From contig NZ_NVEC01000017.1 in NCBI RefSeq assembly GCF_002571225.1, positions 76,145-140,144 of the forward strand: a DNA stretch of 64,000 bases, read 5' to 3'. Both the position numbers and the translations under genes were made by a program. This DNA is from Bacillus sp. AFS059628 (GTDB lineage Bacteria > Bacillota > Bacilli > Bacillales > Bacillaceae_G). This document shows, one piece after another, positions 9,513 through 20,791 of the stretch (position 1 is its first letter; every line of letters begins with the position of its first letter). The notes below the pieces were generated by a model. That model was not told the DNA's origin. It saw nothing but the letters and a program-made list of their open reading frames with translations, and ran no database searches.

Positions 9513-9712
9513 GAAAACGCTTTGTTCCTAAATCCACTACTTATATTATTAGTTGCGTGAAACTCCTTCTTGAGAAAGGTTTTAATTTCTGAATATTCTG
9601 TTGACCGTGATAACATATTCAATTTACAATTTAATTGTGGTGTTCTTTCACAATTAAACTACTTAGAATACACTTCATTTATTTGAAAACAATTACAAAT
9701 AGAGGTGCTAAA

Positions 9713-10669
9713 ATGAAAAATAGAGTAAATCCAGAATTATTACAAGGATTAGAGATGTTTCCGGATCTCGATTTACGCCCGGAAAACTTGCAATCAATCA
9801 GAGAAGGAATAGCCCAAATGAGACCACCCACCGTTGTTGATGACTCCCTTTCGTTAACAGATAAAGTTATTGTTGGACCAGATGCTAATCCGTTACCATT
9901 AAGAATTTACCGTCCAAAATCAAATCATGAATCTTTACCTGTCTTATTATGGATACATGGTGGGGGTTATATCTTAGGTTCTATAGATGATAACGATGAT
10001 ACTTGTATGAGGTTTGCAAAAGAAGCTGGCTGTGTGGTCGTATCTGTAGACTATCGATTAGCTCCTGAACATCCTTATCCAGCACCAATCGAGGATTGTT
10101 ATGCAGCTTTAAAATGGATTGCTGATAATGCAGAGTCATTAAACATTGATTCGAATCGAATTGGGGTTGCAGGAGTAAGCGCTGGAGGTGGGCTAACAGC
10201 AGCATTATCATTATTAGCCCGAGATCGAAAATATCCTTCGATTTGTTTACAAATGCCACTCTATCCAATGATTGATGAGCGAAATAATACACCTTCGGCC
10301 AATGAAATTAAAGAGGGGTTTGTTTGGAATCAAAAGGCAAATGAAGCTGGCTGGAAAATGTATTTAGGAGAAATGTATGGAATGGATCAAATCCCTGCCT
10401 ATGCAGCGCCTTCTCGAGCTGAAGATTATAGCGACTTGCCATATACCTACACATTTGTTGGTCAATTAGATCCATTCCGCAGTGAAACATTAACCTATGT
10501 AAGCAAACTAGCGCAAGCTGGTGTTGATGTCGAATTTCATTTATATCCAAATGCCTATCACTGGTTTGAAGGATTAAATCCAAATGCTGATGTATCTATT
10601 TACGCTGTGAACGAAATGATACAAGCAGTAAAGACTGGTTTCAAAAGAGTATCTAAGGTTAAGGCTTAA
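9713..10669 (+). CDS. alpha/beta hydrolase, hormone-sensitive-lipase (HSL) type esterase
   Basis: 318 residues from the ATG at 9713 with GAGGTG upstream; the longer frame to 9635 has no binding site. It carries the HSL family oxyanion motif HGGGY (about residue 83), the nucleophile elbow GVSAGGG (about 154), the acid in GQLDPF (about 250) and the histidine in NAYHWFEG (about 280). These enzymes hydrolyse short acyl esters in the cytoplasm. It converges on the decarboxylase gene of the NRPS cluster and is separated from it by a strong hairpin, so there is no evidence that it belongs to the cluster. Confidence 0.85.
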   Translation: MKNRVNPELLQGLEMFPDLDLRPENLQSIREGIAQMRPPTVVDDSLSLTDKVIVGPDANPLPLRIYRPKSNHESLPVLLWIHGGGYILGSIDDNDDTCMRFAKEAGCVVVSVDYRLAPEHPYPAPIEDCYAALKWIADNAESLNIDSNRIGVAGVSAGGGLTAALSLLARDRKYPSICLQMPLYPMIDERNNTPSANEIKEGFVWNQKANEAGWKMYLGEMYGMDQIPAYAAPSRAEDYSDLPYTYTFVGQLDPFRSETLTYVSKLAQAGVDVEFHLYPNAYHWFEGLNPNADVSIYAVNEMIQAVKTGFKRVSKVKA

Positions 10670-10727
10670 TATCTTTACAAGAGAAACACTCATAAATAGC
10701 ATACATTTGTGAGTGTTATTATCGATT

Positions 10728-10764
10728 AGCAATAGCCGATTCTAAATAAGAATCGGCTATTGCT
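10728..10764. terminator. hairpin, bidirectional terminator (copy 2 of a repeated stem)
   Basis: A perfect 16-bp stem AGCAATAGCCGATTCT / AGAATCGGCTATTGCT with an AAATA loop between convergent genes. Its core is identical to the stem at 4894-4920. A second hairpin (AACACTCA / TGAGTGTT, 10685-10717) lies just before it on the esterase side. Confidence 0.7.
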
Positions 10765-10785
10765 ATGTAAAATCCACCTAATATA

Positions 10786-12240
10786 TCAAGGCTGAGAAAC
10801 AGATATAAGATGTTTAGACGAAGTGTTTATTTCCTCTGCTACTGCTTTTATGTTCATCATGATTTGAAGCATTTCTTCTATTGTTGTCCTTGGATTGATA
10901 GAGCAAAGTCGAATTACTACTTTTTCTTTCAATCTAGTCGTACTTAGCATAGCAAATCCTCTTTGATTAATTTCTTCCACCAATTTTTTGTTTATTTCAT
11001 GAATTGTATCTGTAGATGTTAGCTCACATGGAATATAACGAAAAGTAACAATTCCTAATTGGGCAGGTGTTACTACTTCCCAATCCTTTTCTTTCCTTAA
11101 AAACTCTTCAACTTGTTCAGCTAGCATAATGCCATGATCAATTGCCTCACGAAAAGCTGTAACTCCGAATGCTTTAAAAGAAAGCCATACTTTTAATGCT
11201 CTAAATCTACGAGAAAGTTCAATTCCACGCTCCCCAAAATTCACTTTTTCTTCTATATTGGTTTCCGTATCCTTAATATACTCCGGGATCATACGGAACG
11301 TTTCACTTAAATATTGGCTATTTTGAATGAGTACACAACCAACATCATAAGGCTGAAAAAGCCATTTATGCGGGTCTAACGTCAAAGAATCAGCACGATG
11401 AATTCCGCTTAACAACTCCCTTCCTTTTTCACTAAGAATTGCTGCAGCCCCATAAGCACCATCCACGTGTAGCCATATATCTTCATCACCACATACATCA
11501 GCCAATTCATCGAGGGAGTCCACCGCTCCGCAATTCGTTGTCCCTGCATTCGCAATAACACAGAATGGTTTTTTCCCTTTTAATCGATCTTCTTTTAATT
11601 GCTTTCTTAAAGTACTAACTGAAATTTTTAAATCTTCATCTGTCTCAATTCGGCAAATTTGATGCTGTTTAAAACCTAATACTTTAAGTGCTCGATCTAC
11701 AGAAAAATGAGTTTGGTTAGAGAAATACACAACCGCATTTTCTATGTCATTGTTCAGCTTGACCTGTCTCGCTACAGTAAGTGCAGTCAAATTAGCCATA
11801 GAACCGCCACTGACAAATAGTCCTTCAGCTGAATCAGGGAATCCTAGCATTAATTTTAACCAGTTAATTGTCGTTAATTCAATTTGTTCAGCACCTGCAC
11901 CTACTATCCAAGCTGTAGGAAATACATTAAACCCACTTGCTAAAAAATCTGCTACTACACCAACATAATTATTAGGACCTGGCACAAAAGCCATAAAATG
12001 AGGATGATCCACATGAGTAATTTGATTAAACACATTGTTATTAAGAAAATGAAGTAACTCATTTGGGTTAGATCCTTTTTCCGGAATCGTTTCAATTAGC
12101 TTGTCTCTAAAAATATTACTATCAATTGTTTCCGAAACTGGTTTACTTTTTAAATGATTCATATGATCAACAATCAGGTCAACCGCTTGATATCCTAACT
12201 GACGCATCTCTTCGGCTGATAACTGCAAGTTTTTTGTCAT
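10786..12240 (-). CDS. PLP-dependent group II decarboxylase (aromatic L-amino acid decarboxylase type)
   Basis: 484 residues, RBS AGGAG before ATG. It has the complete fold-type I decarboxylase pattern: HPHFMAFVPGPNNYVGVVAD, the phosphate-binding SGGSMANLTAL (about residue 144), HVDGAYGAAAIL (about 259) and the PLP lysine in LTLDPHKWLFQPYD (about 292). Members make tryptamine, tyramine or phenethylamine from aromatic amino acids; others act on glutamate or DOPA, and the substrate cannot be fixed by eye. The gene lies directly after the NRPS gene on the same strand. Since the NRPS ends in a condensation domain with no thioesterase, a free amine from this enzyme is the natural acceptor. A terminator hairpin lies between the two genes. 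Confidence 0.85.
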   Translation of the reverse strand: MTKNLQLSAEEMRQLGYQAVDLIVDHMNHLKSKPVSETIDSNIFRDKLIETIPEKGSNPNELLHFLNNNVFNQITHVDHPHFMAFVPGPNNYVGVVADFLASGFNVFPTAWIVGAGAEQIELTTINWLKLMLGFPDSAEGLFVSGGSMANLTALTVARQVKLNNDIENAVVYFSNQTHFSVDRALKVLGFKQHQICRIETDEDLKISVSTLRKQLKEDRLKGKKPFCVIANAGTTNCGAVDSLDELADVCGDEDIWLHVDGAYGAAAILSEKGRELLSGIHRADSLTLDPHKWLFQPYDVGCVLIQNSQYLSETFRMIPEYIKDTETNIEEKVNFGERGIELSRRFRALKVWLSFKAFGVTAFREAIDHGIMLAEQVEEFLRKEKDWEVVTPAQLGIVTFRYIPCELTSTDTIHEINKKLVEEINQRGFAMLSTTRLKEKVVIRLCSINPRTTIEEMLQIMMNIKAVAEEINTSSKHLISVSQP

Positions 12241-12263
12241 ATAGTTTACTCCTATTCTATTTA

Positions 12264-12289
12264 AAAAGGCGAGTTCTTGCTCGCCTTTT
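12264..12289 (-). terminator. intrinsic terminator between the NRPS and decarboxylase genes
   Basis: A 10-bp stem AAAAGGCGAG / CTCGCCTTTT with a 6-base loop followed on the minus strand by a T-run. It lies seven bases after the NRPS stop and only 23 bases before the decarboxylase start, leaving no room for a promoter downstream. The decarboxylase must be reached by read-through or from a promoter inside the NRPS gene. Confidence 0.75.
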
Positions 12290-12295
12290 CATTTT

Positions 12296-15200
12296 TTATA
12301 ATTTGTAATCACCGATTGCTTGTATTGGATTTTGAAGAATCATGTTGATTAACTGATGCATGTGATTCAATATTTCTTGTATTTTCGCTTCTTCATATAC
12401 GGTTTGATCATATCCAAACTTTATTGTAAGTTTCTCTTCAGGGAAGCACATAATTCCATACTTTACATGCGGCTCATCAACAACTTCGTAATCTGTGATA
12501 GCAAAATTTCTGTTTTCATTTGAAGAGAAGATAGCTTGGTTAGTTGGATAGTTTTCAAAAACCCAAAGATGGTCAGTCAACTGATTTTTTAATTCACTTT
12601 GCTTTTGTATATCAACAAATGAATAGTATGCATACTCATTACATTTCAATGTTTCTAGTTGTACTTTTTGCAGGAAATCTACAAAAGTTTGTGTTTCTGT
12701 CCATGCTAGTCGGATAGGTAAAACATTTGTGAATAGACCGAACATATTTTCAATTTCTTCTACTTCAGGAGGTCTAACTGATACGAGATTAGGTAATACT
12801 ACTTCTCTCGTTCCATTGTATTTGCCAAGCAATAATCCCCATACAGCTAGTAATGCTGTATTCATAGTTATATTGTTTTTAGTTACAAATGTCTGTAACT
12901 GACTAGTTAAATCCTTATCTAAGGTTAAATCCATAAAAGTGAAGTTTAACCCTTCACTTTTAGTTGGCACTTTCTTTTTAGGAATACTAGTCTTTCGATT
13001 GTATCCTGATAAATAATCCCGCCAAAAATGACGTGCTTTCTGATGGTCTTGTGCTAAAGTCCAGTCTATGAATGTTTCAAAAGGTTTTACCATAGGTAAC
13101 TCCGCCGTAGTTCCGGCATTTTTTGTTTCATAGAGCTGGAATAATTCGTCTATTAAAATGCTGACGCTCCAACCATCACATAATAGATGATGCGAACTCC
13201 AAACCACCTTATGCTCGTTATTACCTAGTTGGAATATACAGAGACGGTTCATGAGTTCATCATTTTTGAATCCTTGACTTAAATTTTCACTCATCCACTG
13301 GTCTAGGAATTCTTGCTGTTCTTGTTTCGTCATCTCAATCAAGTTTTTTATTTCTGAATTTATTTGAACATCATATAGAACAGCTTGCCAAGGTTTTGCT
13401 TGTTCATCTTGCACAATTATTGTTCTTAAAGAATCATGACGATCAACTAATTGTTGGAAACACTGAATAAAGAGTTTAATATCCAACTCCCCCTCAAGTG
13501 CCCAAATTATTTGTTCAAAATATGCATTTGTATCAGGTTCATTCGTAGCATGCTCATAAATAACTTCCTGGAAAGGTGCTAACGGGTAAATACGTTCTAT
13601 TTCTATATCCGGCATTTTTTCTTGTATTTTGTTAAGTGTATGTTGATTAAGTTGTTTATCTTTAACATTTAGTAATGTAGCTTTATTATCGTTCATTATG
13701 TTTACATCATTTGTTTGTGAACTTGAAAACTGGTCTAGCTTTTTAACAAATTGAACCATGTCGCTTAATATAGGAAATGAAAATAGATTTTTTGGTTCAA
13801 GCTCAAATCCTTGTCGATACAGTCTGACGGACACTTGAATCGCTTTTATCGAATCTCCACCTAAGGCGAAGAAATGATCATTTACTCCAACTTGATCTAT
13901 TTTGAGTACTTCTTGCCAAATACTAGTTAATATTTTTTCCATTTCAGTTTTTGGAGCAATAAATACTTCATTTTTTTGTTTCTCTGGAGTAGGGAGCGCT
14001 TTTCTATCTAACTTCCCGTTTGGAGTCAAGGGTAATTGTCCCAAATAAACAAAATAAGAAGGAATCATGTAATCTGGCAAGTGATCTCGCAAATGCTTTC
14101 GTAGTTCTGTTGTACTAATATTTTGCTCAGTTACCACATATGCAACTAAAAATTTTATTCCGTTCTCATCTGTTTGATCAATTACGACAGCATGTTCGAC
14201 TTGTTTATAAGTTAGAAGATAATGAGAGATTTCTTCTAACTCTACTCGAAATCCTTGAATTTTCACTTGGTAATCTTGGCGGCCTAAAAATTCAATATAT
14301 CCCTCAGAATGCATTTTTCCACAATCTCCTGTTTTGTATATAAGACCAAAATCAGGATGTGACACAAACGCTTCATTTGTTTTCTTTTCATCATTTAAAT
14401 ATCCTTTAGCAAGGCCAACTCCCCCGATATATAAATCTCCAATTACACCAACAGGGCACATTTTCTTTTCATAGTTCAACACATAATACGTTTGGTTTGC
14501 CAAGGGCATCCCGTATGGAATACTATTCCAATGTGATTCCACCTGTTTGACCGGATAATAAATTGACCAAATCGATGCTTCTGTTGCCCCTCCTAGTGAA
14601 ACTACTTCTGCAATCGGAAAATGTCGTTTTATTTTTTCTGGTAAAGAAAGCGGAATCCAATCTCCACTATGTAAAACTAAACGTAAAGAAGAATGTTCAA
14701 AATGAGAACCTACTTGATCCAATGCCAAATCCATGATTGCAGGCACTGTATTCCAAATTGTAATCCCTCTACGTTCGACAGTGCGGATTAATTCTTGCAT
14801 GTCTCTTGGATCACGAATCATTACCAACATTGCACCTGTGCTTAAAGCTCCAAAAATATCGTATACAGATAGGTCAAAACACATGGAAGAGATACCAATA
14901 ATACGATCATCTTCATTTACCTCATATTTTTGATTTATGTCTTGAATAGTATTTGTAACCGCTTGGTGAGTAATAATTACTCCTTTTGGTTTCCCTGTAC
15001 TTCCTGAAGTGTATATAATATAGGCAATATCTTCTGGACCAGCAATAGCGGGCATATCTTCTGTTGTATAAAATGACAAATGATTTTCTTCATAAAGACT
15101 AGGTTCTAATAAAAGTTTGCATGAGCTATTTTTAAAAATAAATGTTTGGCGATCTAAAGGATGATCGGGATCAATCGGAACATAAGCGGCACCTGCTTTT

Positions 15201-18200
15201 AAAATACCTAACATATTAACAATTGTGTCAACTCGCCTTTTTGCTAAAAGACCCACTTTGTCACCTAGACCAATGCCTTGCTCTTTTAAGAAGTGGGCAA
15301 TTTGATTGGAGCGTTTATGAAGTTCCGAGTATGTTAACCATTCTTGTTCAAATACCACTGCTACTTCATCCGGTGTACGTTTTACTTGGTCTGTAAATAA
15401 TTGATACAGAGTAGTTGAAGGTATTTTTTCTGTTGTTTCATTGTATTGCTTAATTAAAGTTTGATCCGATTCTTTCATCTGCAAAGATGTTATATCGCTT
15501 TGTTTCACCAATTGTTCCAATAAGTCAACAAATTGGGAAAACATTGCTTCTATTACATCAACATCAAACAACTCTTCAACATAGTTCCAGCTAATTAATA
15601 ACTCTCCATTTTTTTCAATTACTACATTATCCAAATACACTTGTGGAGTCCGAGCATGAATATAGCGAAGAGAACCAAGTTGTTCCCAAGAGAAAGCACC
15701 TGCACCTGCTAACATCGAGGTGAAAACGATTGGCATAACTGCTTTTGGCGTCATTTGATGATAACGAGTAAAATCTCGAATAAAGTTAACTCCATCGTAA
15801 TGACGATGTTCAAGGCCATCTAATAAAGTAGATTGCGTTTCTTTTACTCTAGTAAAGAAAGTTTGCTCTGGTTTTACATCAACATCCAATAAAATAAGCG
15901 ATGTGAAATCTCCAACAATCTGTTCTACTTCATCATGAACTGGATAACGGTTAAATACAGTCAAATTAATTGCTAATCGACGTTGATTACTCCAATATGC
16001 CAACACATCACCATATATTGTACAAAGTAGAGCGGAAGGTGTTACCTCTTTCTCTTGTGCTAACTTTCGTAGCTTTGTCCATTTTTCATTGTCCATGATT
16101 TTTGTAAGTGATTGGAATTTAGGAGTAGCAATCTCTGCTGGATCCTTTTTTAACAGCAAAGAAGGTGCAAACGGAAAGTCAGGAAGCTTACTTGTCCAAT
16201 AATCTTTTGCTGTTTTATATTCTTCACTTTGTTCCATTTCATCATAGATAAACATATAATCTTGAAAATCAAAAGATAGAGATTCTAATTTTTGATTTGG
16301 TTTATAATAATAATGCAACAAATCCTGTCCAACAATGTTCATGCTTGCTCCGTCCATTAATAAAGCATCGTATCGAAAACATAATAAATACGTGTCTTCT
16401 TTTAAAAGAAAGGCTTTTAATTCAAACAAAGGCCATTGCCCCAAAGGGAATACATGGTTAGTCATTCGAGAACGCTCTTCTTGTAAGCGAGCATTTTGAT
16501 TCCTATCATCTAAATCTATGAGACTCACTATTTCAATCTCGTAATCAGGAACGCTTTGTAATATTTGCTGTTTTCCCTCTGGTAAAATTACAGCTCGCAA
16601 CATTGGATGACGATGAATTACCTTTCGAAAACTTTTTGAAAGACGATTGATATCCAATGCTGTTTCATATTCAAAATATGTTTGAGGTGAAATACCACTT
16701 AATTCAAACTGTGAATTCCGTCCTAACATATACGCTGTCTGAACTTCTGTTAAGGAAAATGGCTTAGACAATTCTTTAACATGAGTTGGTCTACTTTCAA
16801 AGTTTTCCTCTTTATGCTCTAACTTTACACAAGAACTCAGTTGAGCGATTGTAGGGTGCTTAAAAAAATCTGTTGTACTTATTTTTAAGCAGTCTTTTCT
16901 TAGTAAATTAATTACCTGAAGTGCTTTAATGGATTCTCCTTTTAATGCAAAAAAATTATCATGAATACCGATTCCCTCAATCTCCATAACTTTTTCCCAC
17001 GCACGCACTAATTTTTGTTCAATTTCATTGCGCGGGGCAACGTATGGAATTGATACATAATCCGTTTGTGTTATATCCAATAACCTTTTTCTATCCACTT
17101 TTCCATTTGGATTCAATGGAATCTCTTCTACCTGAATCATTTTTTCAGGAATCATAAACTCAGGTAATTTATCACTTAAATATTTTCTGATTTCATCAAA
17201 AGACACTTTGCTATCGGATACATAGTAAGCAGCTAATAATTTCCTATTTCCATACACTTGATCAACAACGATAACTTGGTTTACTTCTGGATATTCCCTT
17301 AATTGAGTTTCGATTTCTCTTAATTCAATCCGATACCCCCGAATTTTCACTTGATGGTCCATTCGACCTAAATATTCAAGTTCTCCATTAGGCAACCAAC
17401 GAACGAGATCACCTGTATGATACATCATTTCTCCTGCCTTAAAAGGACTCGGTACAAATTTTTCATCTGTTAGTTTATTTTTACCAAGATACCCTCGTGC
17501 TACCGCTACGCCAGCAATGCAGAGTTCACCGGGAATTCCAAATGGTTTTAATTGGCCATACTTATTCAATATATAGGAATGATAATTCGGATTAGGTTTG
17601 CCAATCGTAACTTCTTTGGAAGTGCTTAAGTCTTTCACTGTTGCGCAAATGGTTGTTTCTGTGGGACCATAAATATTTAAAATTGTTGCTTCACTGATAC
17701 AACGAATTTTTTCAACCAAATCAATGGAAAATGCTTCTCCTGCTAATAAAATAGATTTTAAATCTTTTAGAAAATTTGCCCCTTCTGGATCACTCAAAAT
17801 CACTTCCATTCGCGATGGCGTTGATTCCCATAAATCCACCTTATGTTTTTTGACTAAATGAGCCAATTCTTTTGTTGCAAACTGCTCCTCTGTAGCAATT
17901 ACTACTTTTGAACCTTGCGTTAAAGGAAGACATATTTCTAACAAGGAAATATCAAAAGATACACTAGCAAGAAACAAGAATGATTGATTATCCTTTACTT
18001 TTTCTCTCATTACATTTAAAAAATGAACTAGAGATTTTTGTTCTATCATTACCCCTTTTGGATTTCCTGTCGATCCTGATGTGTAAATAACATAAGCCAA
18101 ATCATTAGGATTATGTTCTCGTACTAAATTACTTTCTTCACCTTGGAAAAGATATTCTTTATCAAGATACAGTACTTCACCCGCAAATTGTGGCAATACT

Positions 18201-19306
18201 TCCTCTGTTCGCTTACTAAGTAAATATTTTGCTTGACTATCTTGTAACATATATTCAATTCGTTCATTTGGATAGTTAGGATCAATTGGTAAATATGCTG
18301 CACCTGCTTTTAAAATTCCCATCATACCAATAATCATTTCTAATGACCGATCTACCATAACGCCAATAATACTTTCTTTTGAAACACCTTTACTTTGAAG
18401 AATAGAAGCCAATTGATTCGCTTTCTTATTCAATTCTCTATATGTCAAAGATTGATCATTACAAACAACAGCAATTTGATCTGGAGTTTTTAATACTTGC
18501 GCTTCAAACAAATCTTGAAATGATTGAAACAAGTCTATGCCCGTTTGAAAAGTATTCAATCCTTCTAGCAACTCTTTTTCTTCTTCTGCAATAATACAAA
18601 TATCTTTCAATGCCAAATTCGGGTTTTGTGAAACTTGTTTTAAAACATAACAATACGAATTGGCAAACTGTTGCAAAGAAGAGAATGAATGGGACTTGCA
18701 AGCAATTTGAAATTCAAATTCATTATGTATTTCATTCCATTTTCTTCGTATCCATAGGGCTAAATTATTCTCTGCGTATTCTTCTAGCGAATTTTCATTA
18801 TGTAATCCTTCCATCCCGATTACAATTTGAAAAGGAGTTAAATTGTGTTTAACTAATAATTCAGAGAGCGGATACTCCTGATTTTCATACCCGAATAAAG
18901 TCGTTTGTTCAATCTCATTTACTAATTGTTTAAAGGTGTGATGCGGATGGATTTCACTTCCTAAAGGAATCAACTTATTAAGATTCTCACTTTGTTCAAG
19001 ATTCTTTTCAATGATAGGAATACCAATAGTAATTCTTTCTTGATCTGTATAATGTGCCAAACAAACCCTTAAAGCGGCTTGAAACCAGCTAAATAATAAT
19101 AAATCTTGAGACCTACTTATTTTTTGTATATTTTTACTAAACTCTACATTCACTATGACTCGAACGTACTCACAAGGTGTTTCTTTATTTAGTTGGTAAT
19201 TGCTATTAAATACAGAAAAATCGAGAACCTCAGAAGATAATTGCTCCTTCCAAAACGCTTCTACTTCTTTATTTTCATGAATCGAACTTCGATCTTTAAT
19301 GTGCAT
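12296..19306 (-). CDS. non-ribosomal peptide synthetase, partial C - A - PCP - Cy - A(Cys) - PCP - C
   Basis: 2336 residues, RBS AGGGGGA. Residues 1-250 resemble only the second half of a condensation domain (EAFWKEQL, no HHxxxDG). A1 spans about 265-745 (YVIYTSGSTGNPKGV, NIYGPTETT, YHTGDLVRW, NGKVDRK); its pocket code reads roughly D-I-L-E-L-A-I-I-C, which matches no code I know. PCP1 has Ser792 in the unusual context LKGES. A heterocyclisation domain (about 845-1280) has the Cy signature D980-x4-D985-x2-S988 in place of HHxxxDG. A2 (about 1296-1772) gives the code D-L-Y-N-L-S-L-I-W(-K), the textbook cysteine code. PCP2 has Ser1819 in LGGDS. The C-terminal condensation domain (1902-2336) has HHLLCDG at 2039-2045 and NVLPIRL, so it is C rather than E. 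There is no thioesterase. Predicted product: aminoacyl-thiazoline, released onto an amine. Confidence 0.92.
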   Translation of the reverse strand: MHIKDRSSIHENKEVEAFWKEQLSSEVLDFSVFNSNYQLNKETPCEYVRVIVNVEFSKNIQKISRSQDLLLFSWFQAALRVCLAHYTDQERITIGIPIIEKNLEQSENLNKLIPLGSEIHPHHTFKQLVNEIEQTTLFGYENQEYPLSELLVKHNLTPFQIVIGMEGLHNENSLEEYAENNLALWIRRKWNEIHNEFEFQIACKSHSFSSLQQFANSYCYVLKQVSQNPNLALKDICIIAEEEKELLEGLNTFQTGIDLFQSFQDLFEAQVLKTPDQIAVVCNDQSLTYRELNKKANQLASILQSKGVSKESIIGVMVDRSLEMIIGMMGILKAGAAYLPIDPNYPNERIEYMLQDSQAKYLLSKRTEEVLPQFAGEVLYLDKEYLFQGEESNLVREHNPNDLAYVIYTSGSTGNPKGVMIEQKSLVHFLNVMREKVKDNQSFLFLASVSFDISLLEICLPLTQGSKVVIATEEQFATKELAHLVKKHKVDLWESTPSRMEVILSDPEGANFLKDLKSILLAGEAFSIDLVEKIRCISEATILNIYGPTETTICATVKDLSTSKEVTIGKPNPNYHSYILNKYGQLKPFGIPGELCIAGVAVARGYLGKNKLTDEKFVPSPFKAGEMMYHTGDLVRWLPNGELEYLGRMDHQVKIRGYRIELREIETQLREYPEVNQVIVVDQVYGNRKLLAAYYVSDSKVSFDEIRKYLSDKLPEFMIPEKMIQVEEIPLNPNGKVDRKRLLDITQTDYVSIPYVAPRNEIEQKLVRAWEKVMEIEGIGIHDNFFALKGESIKALQVINLLRKDCLKISTTDFFKHPTIAQLSSCVKLEHKEENFESRPTHVKELSKPFSLTEVQTAYMLGRNSQFELSGISPQTYFEYETALDINRLSKSFRKVIHRHPMLRAVILPEGKQQILQSVPDYEIEIVSLIDLDDRNQNARLQEERSRMTNHVFPLGQWPLFELKAFLLKEDTYLLCFRYDALLMDGASMNIVGQDLLHYYYKPNQKLESLSFDFQDYMFIYDEMEQSEEYKTAKDYWTSKLPDFPFAPSLLLKKDPAEIATPKFQSLTKIMDNEKWTKLRKLAQEKEVTPSALLCTIYGDVLAYWSNQRRLAINLTVFNRYPVHDEVEQIVGDFTSLILLDVDVKPEQTFFTRVKETQSTLLDGLEHRHYDGVNFIRDFTRYHQMTPKAVMPIVFTSMLAGAGAFSWEQLGSLRYIHARTPQVYLDNVVIEKNGELLISWNYVEELFDVDVIEAMFSQFVDLLEQLVKQSDITSLQMKESDQTLIKQYNETTEKIPSTTLYQLFTDQVKRTPDEVAVVFEQEWLTYSELHKRSNQIAHFLKEQGIGLGDKVGLLAKRRVDTIVNMLGILKAGAAYVPIDPDHPLDRQTFIFKNSSCKLLLEPSLYEENHLSFYTTEDMPAIAGPEDIAYIIYTSGSTGKPKGVIITHQAVTNTIQDINQKYEVNEDDRIIGISSMCFDLSVYDIFGALSTGAMLVMIRDPRDMQELIRTVERRGITIWNTVPAIMDLALDQVGSHFEHSSLRLVLHSGDWIPLSLPEKIKRHFPIAEVVSLGGATEASIWSIYYPVKQVESHWNSIPYGMPLANQTYYVLNYEKKMCPVGVIGDLYIGGVGLAKGYLNDEKKTNEAFVSHPDFGLIYKTGDCGKMHSEGYIEFLGRQDYQVKIQGFRVELEEISHYLLTYKQVEHAVVIDQTDENGIKFLVAYVVTEQNISTTELRKHLRDHLPDYMIPSYFVYLGQLPLTPNGKLDRKALPTPEKQKNEVFIAPKTEMEKILTSIWQEVLKIDQVGVNDHFFALGGDSIKAIQVSVRLYRQGFELEPKNLFSFPILSDMVQFVKKLDQFSSSQTNDVNIMNDNKATLLNVKDKQLNQHTLNKIQEKMPDIEIERIYPLAPFQEVIYEHATNEPDTNAYFEQIIWALEGELDIKLFIQCFQQLVDRHDSLRTIIVQDEQAKPWQAVLYDVQINSEIKNLIEMTKQEQQEFLDQWMSENLSQGFKNDELMNRLCIFQLGNNEHKVVWSSHHLLCDGWSVSILIDELFQLYETKNAGTTAELPMVKPFETFIDWTLAQDHQKARHFWRDYLSGYNRKTSIPKKKVPTKSEGLNFTFMDLTLDKDLTSQLQTFVTKNNITMNTALLAVWGLLLGKYNGTREVVLPNLVSVRPPEVEEIENMFGLFTNVLPIRLAWTETQTFVDFLQKVQLETLKCNEYAYYSFVDIQKQSELKNQLTDHLWVFENYPTNQAIFSSNENRNFAITDYEVVDEPHVKYGIMCFPEEKLTIKFGYDQTVYEEAKIQEILNHMHQLINMILQNPIQAIGDYKL

Positions 19307-19337
19307 TTTATCTTTATCCCCCTAATATTCATTTCTT

Positions 19338-20315
19338 CTACTCGTTAATTTTCAAGCCAACTTCAAGCCCATGGAGAAACACTTGGTGGTTATCCAAACA
19401 TAAAAATTGCTGAATCTCTTCAAATTTCATATGACCAACTGAACAAACCCCTAAATTTAATGTCTCAGCAACCATATTTAAGGTAGCAGTGATAATGCCT
19501 GACTCAATACAAGCATATAAATATCCATCTGAACCGTATTTCGGGATGGAAGCGTTCGCATTATAAACCAAATAAACTGAGAAGGCCGATTGAGTAAATA
19601 AATCCTGATTAACTAACTCATGATCACTTTTGATTACTTGATCAATGTTGTTTACAATCACAAGACTATTTTTTGATGGGTTATAATAATAAAATCCAGC
19701 TTTCATACTCTCTATACGTTTTGGTTTTACATAAACAAAGATATCAATGGGATAGAGCCCGCCTGCACTTGCGTAATGATAGTATATTTTTTCTTCCCTA
19801 ACCTGTTTTAGAGTTGATAAGAATCGGGAAAATTCTGAAAAACTAATTTGTTTTTCCATATCAAATTGACGACAAGACCTACGTTCCTTGATTATAGTGG
19901 GTAGCTCATCTGTTGTTTCAAGTTGAATTTCGGTTGACCGTGCAGCAACGTGCGTGCGATTTAATTGTTCACTCATATACTTATCTAACTCTTCTTTAGA
20001 AAAGCGAATCTGGTTGCTATATGGATTTGGAAAAATCTTTTCTTGTGAAGAAAATACTTCTCTTGGGTGTAATATGTTACTTACTAACACACGATTTTTT
20101 ATCATGAGCTCTATGGTTTTTTGTGTCTCTTCTACATTTCCTAACGAAAAGCGCTCTACTAGTTCACTGATTTTCACACCTTTTTGAGCCATAAAATAAA
20201 AATCAGGAAACCACTCAGACAGAATACCTGTAAATCTCATTTCCCCTATCAAAACTTCATTATGCAACTTCTCCCAATGCTTAATCGGAGACCAGTAGTA
20301 AATTTTCTCGCTCAT
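19338..20315 (-). CDS. SagB-type FMN-dependent dehydrogenase (putative thiazoline oxidase)
   Basis: 325 residues from the ATG at 20313-20315, which has GGAGG five bases upstream; the ATG four codons earlier overlaps that site. The C-terminal two thirds is a nitroreductase fold of the SagB group: ERRSCRQFDMEKQISFSEFS (FMN-phosphate arginines), HYASAGGLYPIDIFVYV (the SagB hallmark) and ESGIITATLNMVAETLNLG. Members oxidise azolines to azoles in thiazole/oxazole-modified peptides, and homologous domains do so in NRPS lines such as epothilone and bleomycin. It lies 31 bases before the NRPS gene, which contains a Cy domain loading cysteine, so thiazoline oxidation is the evident role. The first 110 residues are an unassigned helical domain. 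Confidence 0.85.
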   Translation of the reverse strand: MSEKIYYWSPIKHWEKLHNEVLIGEMRFTGILSEWFPDFYFMAQKGVKISELVERFSLGNVEETQKTIELMIKNRVLVSNILHPREVFSSQEKIFPNPYSNQIRFSKEELDKYMSEQLNRTHVAARSTEIQLETTDELPTIIKERRSCRQFDMEKQISFSEFSRFLSTLKQVREEKIYYHYASAGGLYPIDIFVYVKPKRIESMKAGFYYYNPSKNSLVIVNNIDQVIKSDHELVNQDLFTQSAFSVYLVYNANASIPKYGSDGYLYACIESGIITATLNMVAETLNLGVCSVGHMKFEEIQQFLCLDNHQVFLHGLEVGLKINE

Positions 20316-20791
20316 ATAATCCTCCATAAACGTTTAACTTATTTTGAAATGCAATTTTCTAATCTACAAAAATTTTTTTAGATTCTGCTCCTTGTCTCAT
20401 AGTGATTATAAATACATGCACTTTAACGAAACTTGAAAATAATGAAATAACTTTTTCTTCATTAAATTTTTTTATTTCATCATAAAAAATGATTTTTCTT
20501 TGGATATTTCACATCCTTTCCCATAGTAATCCTATAAGGTATAAACCATTTATAACATTGAGAATATTCATGTATTTCCAATGTGAAATTATTGTAATGG
20601 ATTGGAGAGCGGTTGAATATAGTTATTAAATCAAATAATGTTGAGAAAGTTTTATTTATTATATCGATAAAATTTTATGATGTAATTTATTACAAATAGA
20701 TTAAGAAAAGAGTTTTAAATTTTTCTTAATCAGTTAGTGTGAAGATATCACATACTATTACATACAATTGAGTTACTTACATTTCAAATTC
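20316..20791 (-). other. long upstream region of the NRPS cluster
   Basis: About 475 bp with no convincing gene. It holds a possible extended -10 element for the minus strand (TGTTATAAAT, -10 at 20549-20554) about 235 bp before the sagB-like start, and an 11-bp inverted repeat GATTAAGAAAA / TTTTCTTAATC (20699-20731). A 49-codon stop-to-stop frame (20359-20508) has coding-like composition but no start codon. I assign no function. Confidence 0.35.

Follow-up and report, generated by a model that had tools for sequence, protein, structure and literature searches.

Three head-to-tail genes on the minus strand of Bacillus sp. AFS059628, at positions 10786-20315 of the window (the whole 64,000-nucleotide stretch of DNA analysed here), almost certainly constitute a bacillamide D biosynthetic cluster (bmdCBA, or bac), with Ala-thiazole-tryptamide as its predicted product. 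This cluster is already known, and its presence, although genuine, is unremarkable for this bacterial group; an earlier sequence-only reading of the same DNA did not know that it had been described in Bacillus cereus itself. The window adds one more example of a widespread and much-studied cluster, and a further copy is of only modest help. Its small additions are a hairpin core kept in four clusters, DNA similarity that ends near the cassette edges, and low dS between genera; the hairpin and the hint of intergeneric transfer provide small testable points on the control and spread of the cluster. In the available text of PMC11133360, bacillamides are reported to be algicidal and bacillamide D to be cytotoxic to cultured cells, and little is known as to whether bacillamides have signalling roles within the Bacilli (PMC5686519).

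Gene and domain layout of the cassette

The order of transcription is oxidase, non-ribosomal peptide synthetase (NRPS) and PLP decarboxylase, with no internal stop in any of the three ORFs, whose place and strand are those given by the sequence-only reading. The first gene (19338-20315, minus strand, 325 aa) encodes a bmdC-like SagB-family FMN oxidase which, by homology, combines an RRE-like N-terminal domain with a nitro-FMN reductase domain, and which passes the NCBIfam SagB model TIGR03605 (152.4 bits, cut-off 78.4). The ORF caller placed its start at 20327; the second in-frame ATG, at 20315, is preceded by GGAGG at 5 nt, and the same layout is found in the related clusters of Bacillus atrophaeus and Priestia endophytica, making 20315 the better start. 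A 31-bp gap separates the oxidase gene from that of the bmdB-like NRPS (12296-19306, minus strand, 2336 aa; Pfam and PDB matches), and a 55-bp gap separates the latter from the gene for a bmdA-like PLP group II decarboxylase (10786-12240, minus strand, 484 aa), a putative tryptophan decarboxylase that passes PF00282 (245.7 bits, cut-off 27). Its PLP lysine is presumably residue 292, judging by the surrounding motif.

Scanned with Pfam in five pieces, the NRPS protein gives, in order, partial Condensation, AMP-binding, PP-binding, Condensation-type, AMP-binding, PP-binding and full Condensation matches, exactly the partial C-A-PCP-Cy-A-PCP-C order proposed earlier; the minus-strand row of SagB-type oxidase, NRPS and PLP group II decarboxylase is likewise borne out (TIGR03605, Pfam, PF00282). 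No thioesterase domain was found in the NRPS by Pfam. All NRPS domains lie on the minus strand. At the N terminus stands the C-terminal lobe only of a condensation domain (18566-19276, residues 11-247), matching positions 190-455 of the 456 in the Pfam Condensation profile and aligning in the NRPSs of all three relatives described below. It is followed by A1 (17099-18508, residues 267-736, with AMP-binding at 267-607 and a C-terminal part at 664-736), for which alanine is the predicted substrate, and by PCP1 (16829-17017, residues 764-826; Pfam PP-binding). The middle Condensation-type domain (15494-16756, residues 851-1271) is a heterocyclization (Cy) domain by its match to the structure 5t3e and by its DxxxxD sequence, which we take to be the Cy-domain motif. 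A2 (14012-15397, residues 1304-1765, with AMP-binding at 1304-1637 and 1696-1765), predicted to use cysteine, precedes PCP2 (13745-13930, residues 1793-1854; Pfam PP-binding) and a full terminal C domain (12299-13597, residues 1904-2336) with the motif HHLLCDG, which would release the chain by passing it to tryptamine.

Pfam scans of eleven flanking ORFs, covering those above about 120 aa (a small MbtH-like gene would fall below this size), revealed no MbtH, transporter or YcaO cyclodehydratase gene, which agrees, within that size range, with the earlier claim that transporter and MbtH genes are lacking. One flank carries alpha/beta hydrolase (9710-10669), PAP2 phosphatase, HAD hydrolase, DUF4180, MepB-like, arylamine N-acetyltransferase, OmdA/YdeI-like and FAD oxidoreductase genes, and the other a pullulanase, a thermolysin-type protease and a zinc-finger/DUF4179 gene (all by Pfam). 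The arylamine N-acetyltransferase gene (PF00797, 4934-5710) is on the cluster's strand, some 5 kb downstream; since bacillamide C is N-acetylated bacillamide D, a link between this gene and bacillamide C formation is conceivable.

Likeness to bacillamide enzymes and the predicted pathway

Among PDB sequences, the best match of the NRPS is the bacillamide synthetase BmdB (7ly7, 7ly4), at 1809.6 bits over residues 845-1858 (module 2), with linear gramicidin synthetase behind it at 1046 bits, and the Cy domain scores 793.8 bits with 5t3e, the structure of the heterocyclization domain of bacillamide synthetase. The oxidase scores 505.3 bits with BmdC, 48 bits with the next protein (3eo7) and only 17.4 bits with McbC. 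A SagB-type oxidase with a TIGR03605 match would favour a RiPP (TOMM) azole pathway, but these bit scores, the lack of a YcaO cyclodehydratase beside the oxidase among the eleven ORFs scanned and the synteny with bmdABC make that reading highly improbable, and it was rejected.

The bacillamide reading also agrees with what is published on individual residues. In BmdC, R145, R146, S147, R149, N236 and G294 contact FMN, Y260 belongs to the active site, and D225 and D231 form salt bridges with R1512 and R1513 of BmdB (PMC8795117, available text). All eleven residues are found at equivalent places in the window and in the three related clusters; as the BmdC numbering was anchored on RRSCR, R145, R146, S147 and R149 fit by construction, and the other seven make an independent test, with BmdB numbering anchored on the loop with Ser1534/His1535. 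Thr1196 and Asp1226, which we take to be catalytic residues of Cy domains, are also present in the window. As in bmd/bac clusters, the oxidase is thus a stand-alone BmdC-type protein with the FMN, active-site tyrosine and NRPS-interface residues, and the NRPS has the A-PCP-Cy-A-PCP-C order, with an extra partial C lobe at its N terminus.

In the proposed pathway, the decarboxylase would convert tryptophan to tryptamine; A1 would load alanine on PCP1 and A2 cysteine on PCP2, and the Cy domain would condense and cyclise the two into Ala-thiazoline on PCP2. Docked on A2, the oxidase would then turn the thiazoline into a thiazole with the chain still bound, and the terminal C domain would hand the chain to tryptamine, giving Ala-thiazole-tryptamide, i.e., bacillamide D ([M+H]+ 315.14).

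The same three enzymes make up bmdA-bmdB-bmdC of Thermoactinomyces vulgaris F-5595 (PMC8795117, available text; PDB 7ly4-7ly7, 5t3e), in which BmdB has the A1-PCP1-Cy2-A2-PCP2-C3 order of the window NRPS and the FMN, active-site and interface residues are also the same; protein identity is about 67-70%, measured on the Laceyella cluster as a stand-in, and the domain string given in that text has no entry for the C remnant present at the N terminus in the window. The pathway was reconstituted in vitro with the T. vulgaris enzymes, Ala, Cys and Trp yielding Ala-Cys(thiazole)-tryptamide, and the B. atrophaeus enzyme is stated there to be a tryptophan decarboxylase. In the available text of PMC11133360, the cluster cloned from B. 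cereus DSM 28590 runs from an oxidase gene of 1 kb through an NRPS gene of 7 kb to a decarboxylase gene of 1.5 kb, with a predicted terminator in the 55-bp gap before the last; it gave bacillamide D in E. coli, and tiny amounts in the native strain. By description, the window is alike in gene order, rough gene sizes and the 55-bp gap.

The decarboxylase, encoded beside the NRPS and carrying the PLP lysine, has 4obu as its nearest solved structure, followed by plant and animal aromatic decarboxylases, and these do not single out tryptophan. A bacillamide-type cluster making another member, with a different amino acid at A1 or with tyramine or phenethylamine in place of tryptamine, is nevertheless very unlikely in view of the adenylation pockets, whose residues were assigned manually to the usual code positions. 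That of A1 reads D-I-L-E-L-A-I-I-C, as in Laceyella and Priestia, with B. atrophaeus differing at one position, and that of A2 reads D-L-Y-N-L-S-L-I-W (+K) in all four clusters, presumably the classic cysteine code. Both agree with the Laceyella enzyme, whose partner oxidase is nearly identical, by eye, to BmdC of T. vulgaris, whose pathway uses Ala, Cys and Trp; in addition, the decarboxylase shares 85.4% identity with its counterpart in B. atrophaeus, a species whose enzyme is reported to act on tryptophan (PMC8795117). The earlier proposal of a bacillamide-like aminoacyl-thiazole amide of an aryl-ethylamine, made by a minimal three-gene pathway, is supported by the BmdB and BmdC matches in the PDB, the residues, the synteny and the literature, and may be made more specific, with alanine, cysteine and tryptamine as the building blocks and bacillamide D as the most likely product.

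Gap hairpin, PCP1 and functional state

The 55-bp gap between the NRPS and decarboxylase genes folds at -17.5 kcal/mol, compared with a mean of -5.1 for shuffled sequences (z -5.8; 0 of 200 shuffles as good). Folding and pattern comparison across four clusters place a hairpin at 12264-12289 on the minus strand of the window, with counterparts at 18045-18062 in both the B. atrophaeus and Priestia loci and at 18022-18040 in the Laceyella locus; its stem core, GGCGAG...CTCGCC, is unchanged and in the same place in all four, which come from several genera, and the core pattern occurs once in the window against a chance expectation of 0.00. No covariation was seen in the stem core, the four sequences having no core changes. 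The published reading of the element in the 55-bp gap is a predicted terminator (PMC11133360, available text). In the window a clear T run follows the stem core; this run is shorter in Priestia and broken in B. atrophaeus and Laceyella. A consensus terminator scan of the window gave 7 sites, with 5.2 expected, and listed the gap hairpin on the opposite strand only, because on the coding strand the stem takes up most of the T run. No Rfam family reached the gathering threshold in the window, so at that level the hairpin matches none of the RNA families already described. On these sequence features, we lean towards a role in attenuation or in RNA processing, and away from a complete stop of transcription.

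PCP1 reads FFALKGES (16931-16954, residues 785-792) where the three relatives have FFALGGES; the lysine, at a position with glycine in those relatives, is three residues before the arm-carrying serine, and might affect loading. The altered motif and the strong hairpin ahead of the decarboxylase would fit a cluster that is present but not working in this strain, either silent or weakened by one of these two features. Bacillamide masses were found in only 58% of predicted producer strains (PMC5686519), so that a cluster is not proof of product, and the native yield of one B. cereus strain was tiny (PMC11133360). Such a loss of function is nonetheless unlikely, since the three ORFs are intact and amino-acid changes have been held down, with dN/dS of 0.06-0.28 across NRPS domains (window versus B. 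atrophaeus and Priestia) and dN of 0.07-0.10 against dS of 0.63-0.75 in the oxidase and decarboxylase; moreover, the B. cereus cluster with its 55-bp gap and predicted terminator does yield the compound natively (PMC11133360, available text). In the same comparisons, the N-terminal C remnant (18566-19276) is the fastest-evolving part of the NRPS (dN/dS 0.25-0.28, versus 0.06-0.17 in the other domains), and is nonetheless kept in four of four clusters.

Related clusters, cassette edges and possible transfer between genera

A pattern-led scan of a species-genome collection with the oxidase confirmed three loci among 54 pattern-matching stretches, in B. atrophaeus (L001), P. endophytica (L002) and Laceyella sacchari (L003), all with the oxidase-NRPS-decarboxylase order of bmd/bac clusters. 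Identities to the window, in that order of species, are 83.2, 82.8 and 66.9% for the NRPS, 79.6, 78.7 and 67.2% for the oxidase, and 85.4, 86.0 and 69.5% for the decarboxylase. The comparison with B. atrophaeus that the sequence-only reading had proposed thus gives three proteins 79.6-85.4% identical in the same order, and synteny in related genomes, a further point that it had raised, is found in three other species. The B. atrophaeus NRPS is also 2336 aa long; its cluster differs from the window in its flanking genes and in PCP1, which has GGES.

According to the available text of PMC11133360, about two thirds of the B. cereus group genomes sequenced carry the bacillamide D cluster; judging by gene content, the window may itself belong to this group. 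A sample of 397 genomes from the order includes no close relative of the window (its tryptophan 2,3-dioxygenase gene matched 149 at threshold, the best at 78%), and three of the 397 had oxidase matches at the thresholds used, namely those of B. atrophaeus, P. endophytica and an embedded oxidase at 42% identity. The genus of B. atrophaeus had matches in 2 of 44 genomes (its own and the embedded case), the family of Priestia in 1 of 16 (Priestia itself) and, with the Laceyella oxidase as query, the family of Laceyella in 1 of 23 (Laceyella itself).

The cluster DNA similarity ends near the cassette edges. Window positions 1-25000 were compared with loci that extend at least 9.8 kb upstream of the cluster but only some 1.5 kb beyond its downstream end; similarity of the window to the B. 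atrophaeus and Priestia DNA (84.4-84.5%) begins about 58 nt ahead of the oxidase start and ceases some 16-20 nt short of the decarboxylase end. These two loci match each other at 94.4% over 9821-19513, and elsewhere only over 99 bp within the cluster. The Priestia and Laceyella loci have the next downstream gene in common, a convergent pyridine-nucleotide-disulphide oxidoreductase gene (L002 19746-20969, L003 19658-20959; 80% identical) that does not adjoin the cluster in either the window or B. atrophaeus.

Between B. atrophaeus and Priestia, dS is 0.15 for the NRPS, 0.21 for the oxidase and 0.13 for the decarboxylase, versus saturation for acoB and 4.33 for a secY-like gene, the only two controls. 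The secY-like gene of the window is possibly not the main secY, and its matched stretches contained stop codons in two relatives, so that the best-matching open stretch was compared. Cluster genes of the window show dS of 0.65-0.75 with B. atrophaeus, against saturation in both controls, and of 0.63-0.71 with Priestia, against 1.40 and 2.55, the weakest contrast. With dS between B. atrophaeus and Priestia so far below that of the control genes, the data point to movement of the cassette between genera, without proving it. It is possible, if rather less than probable, that a self-contained cassette of about 9.6 kb has passed between Bacillales genera with its own conserved RNA hairpin, which would set the level of the tryptamine-making enzyme relative to the synthetase. 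As for vehicles, a megablast search of 72,556 plasmid records with the 8,032-base NRPS-oxidase stretch gave no match, and among viral sequences four stretches fitted a pattern and none was confirmed.

BmdC-type oxidases also occur in other settings. In the NRPSs of Paenibacillus tianmuensis and Bacillus pseudomycoides (PMC8795117, available text), such an oxidase works with an A domain, as in the window, but as an RRE-like and Ox didomain inside the A domain, whereas the window oxidase is a separate protein. The embedded case from the genus of B. atrophaeus (L009 1-3936, also L014) is an NRPS with a BmdC-like oxidase, 42% identical, within an A domain, at a site which, by eye, is of the kind described in PMC8795117; as that text already reports such an insertion, the embedded RRE-Ox was set aside as a novelty. 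The B. atrophaeus genome itself holds a second oxidase match, a BmdC-like gene at 36% identity (L010 3-2422, also L015), which adjoins a gene with, by eye, Cy-like NRPS sequence running off the contig end.
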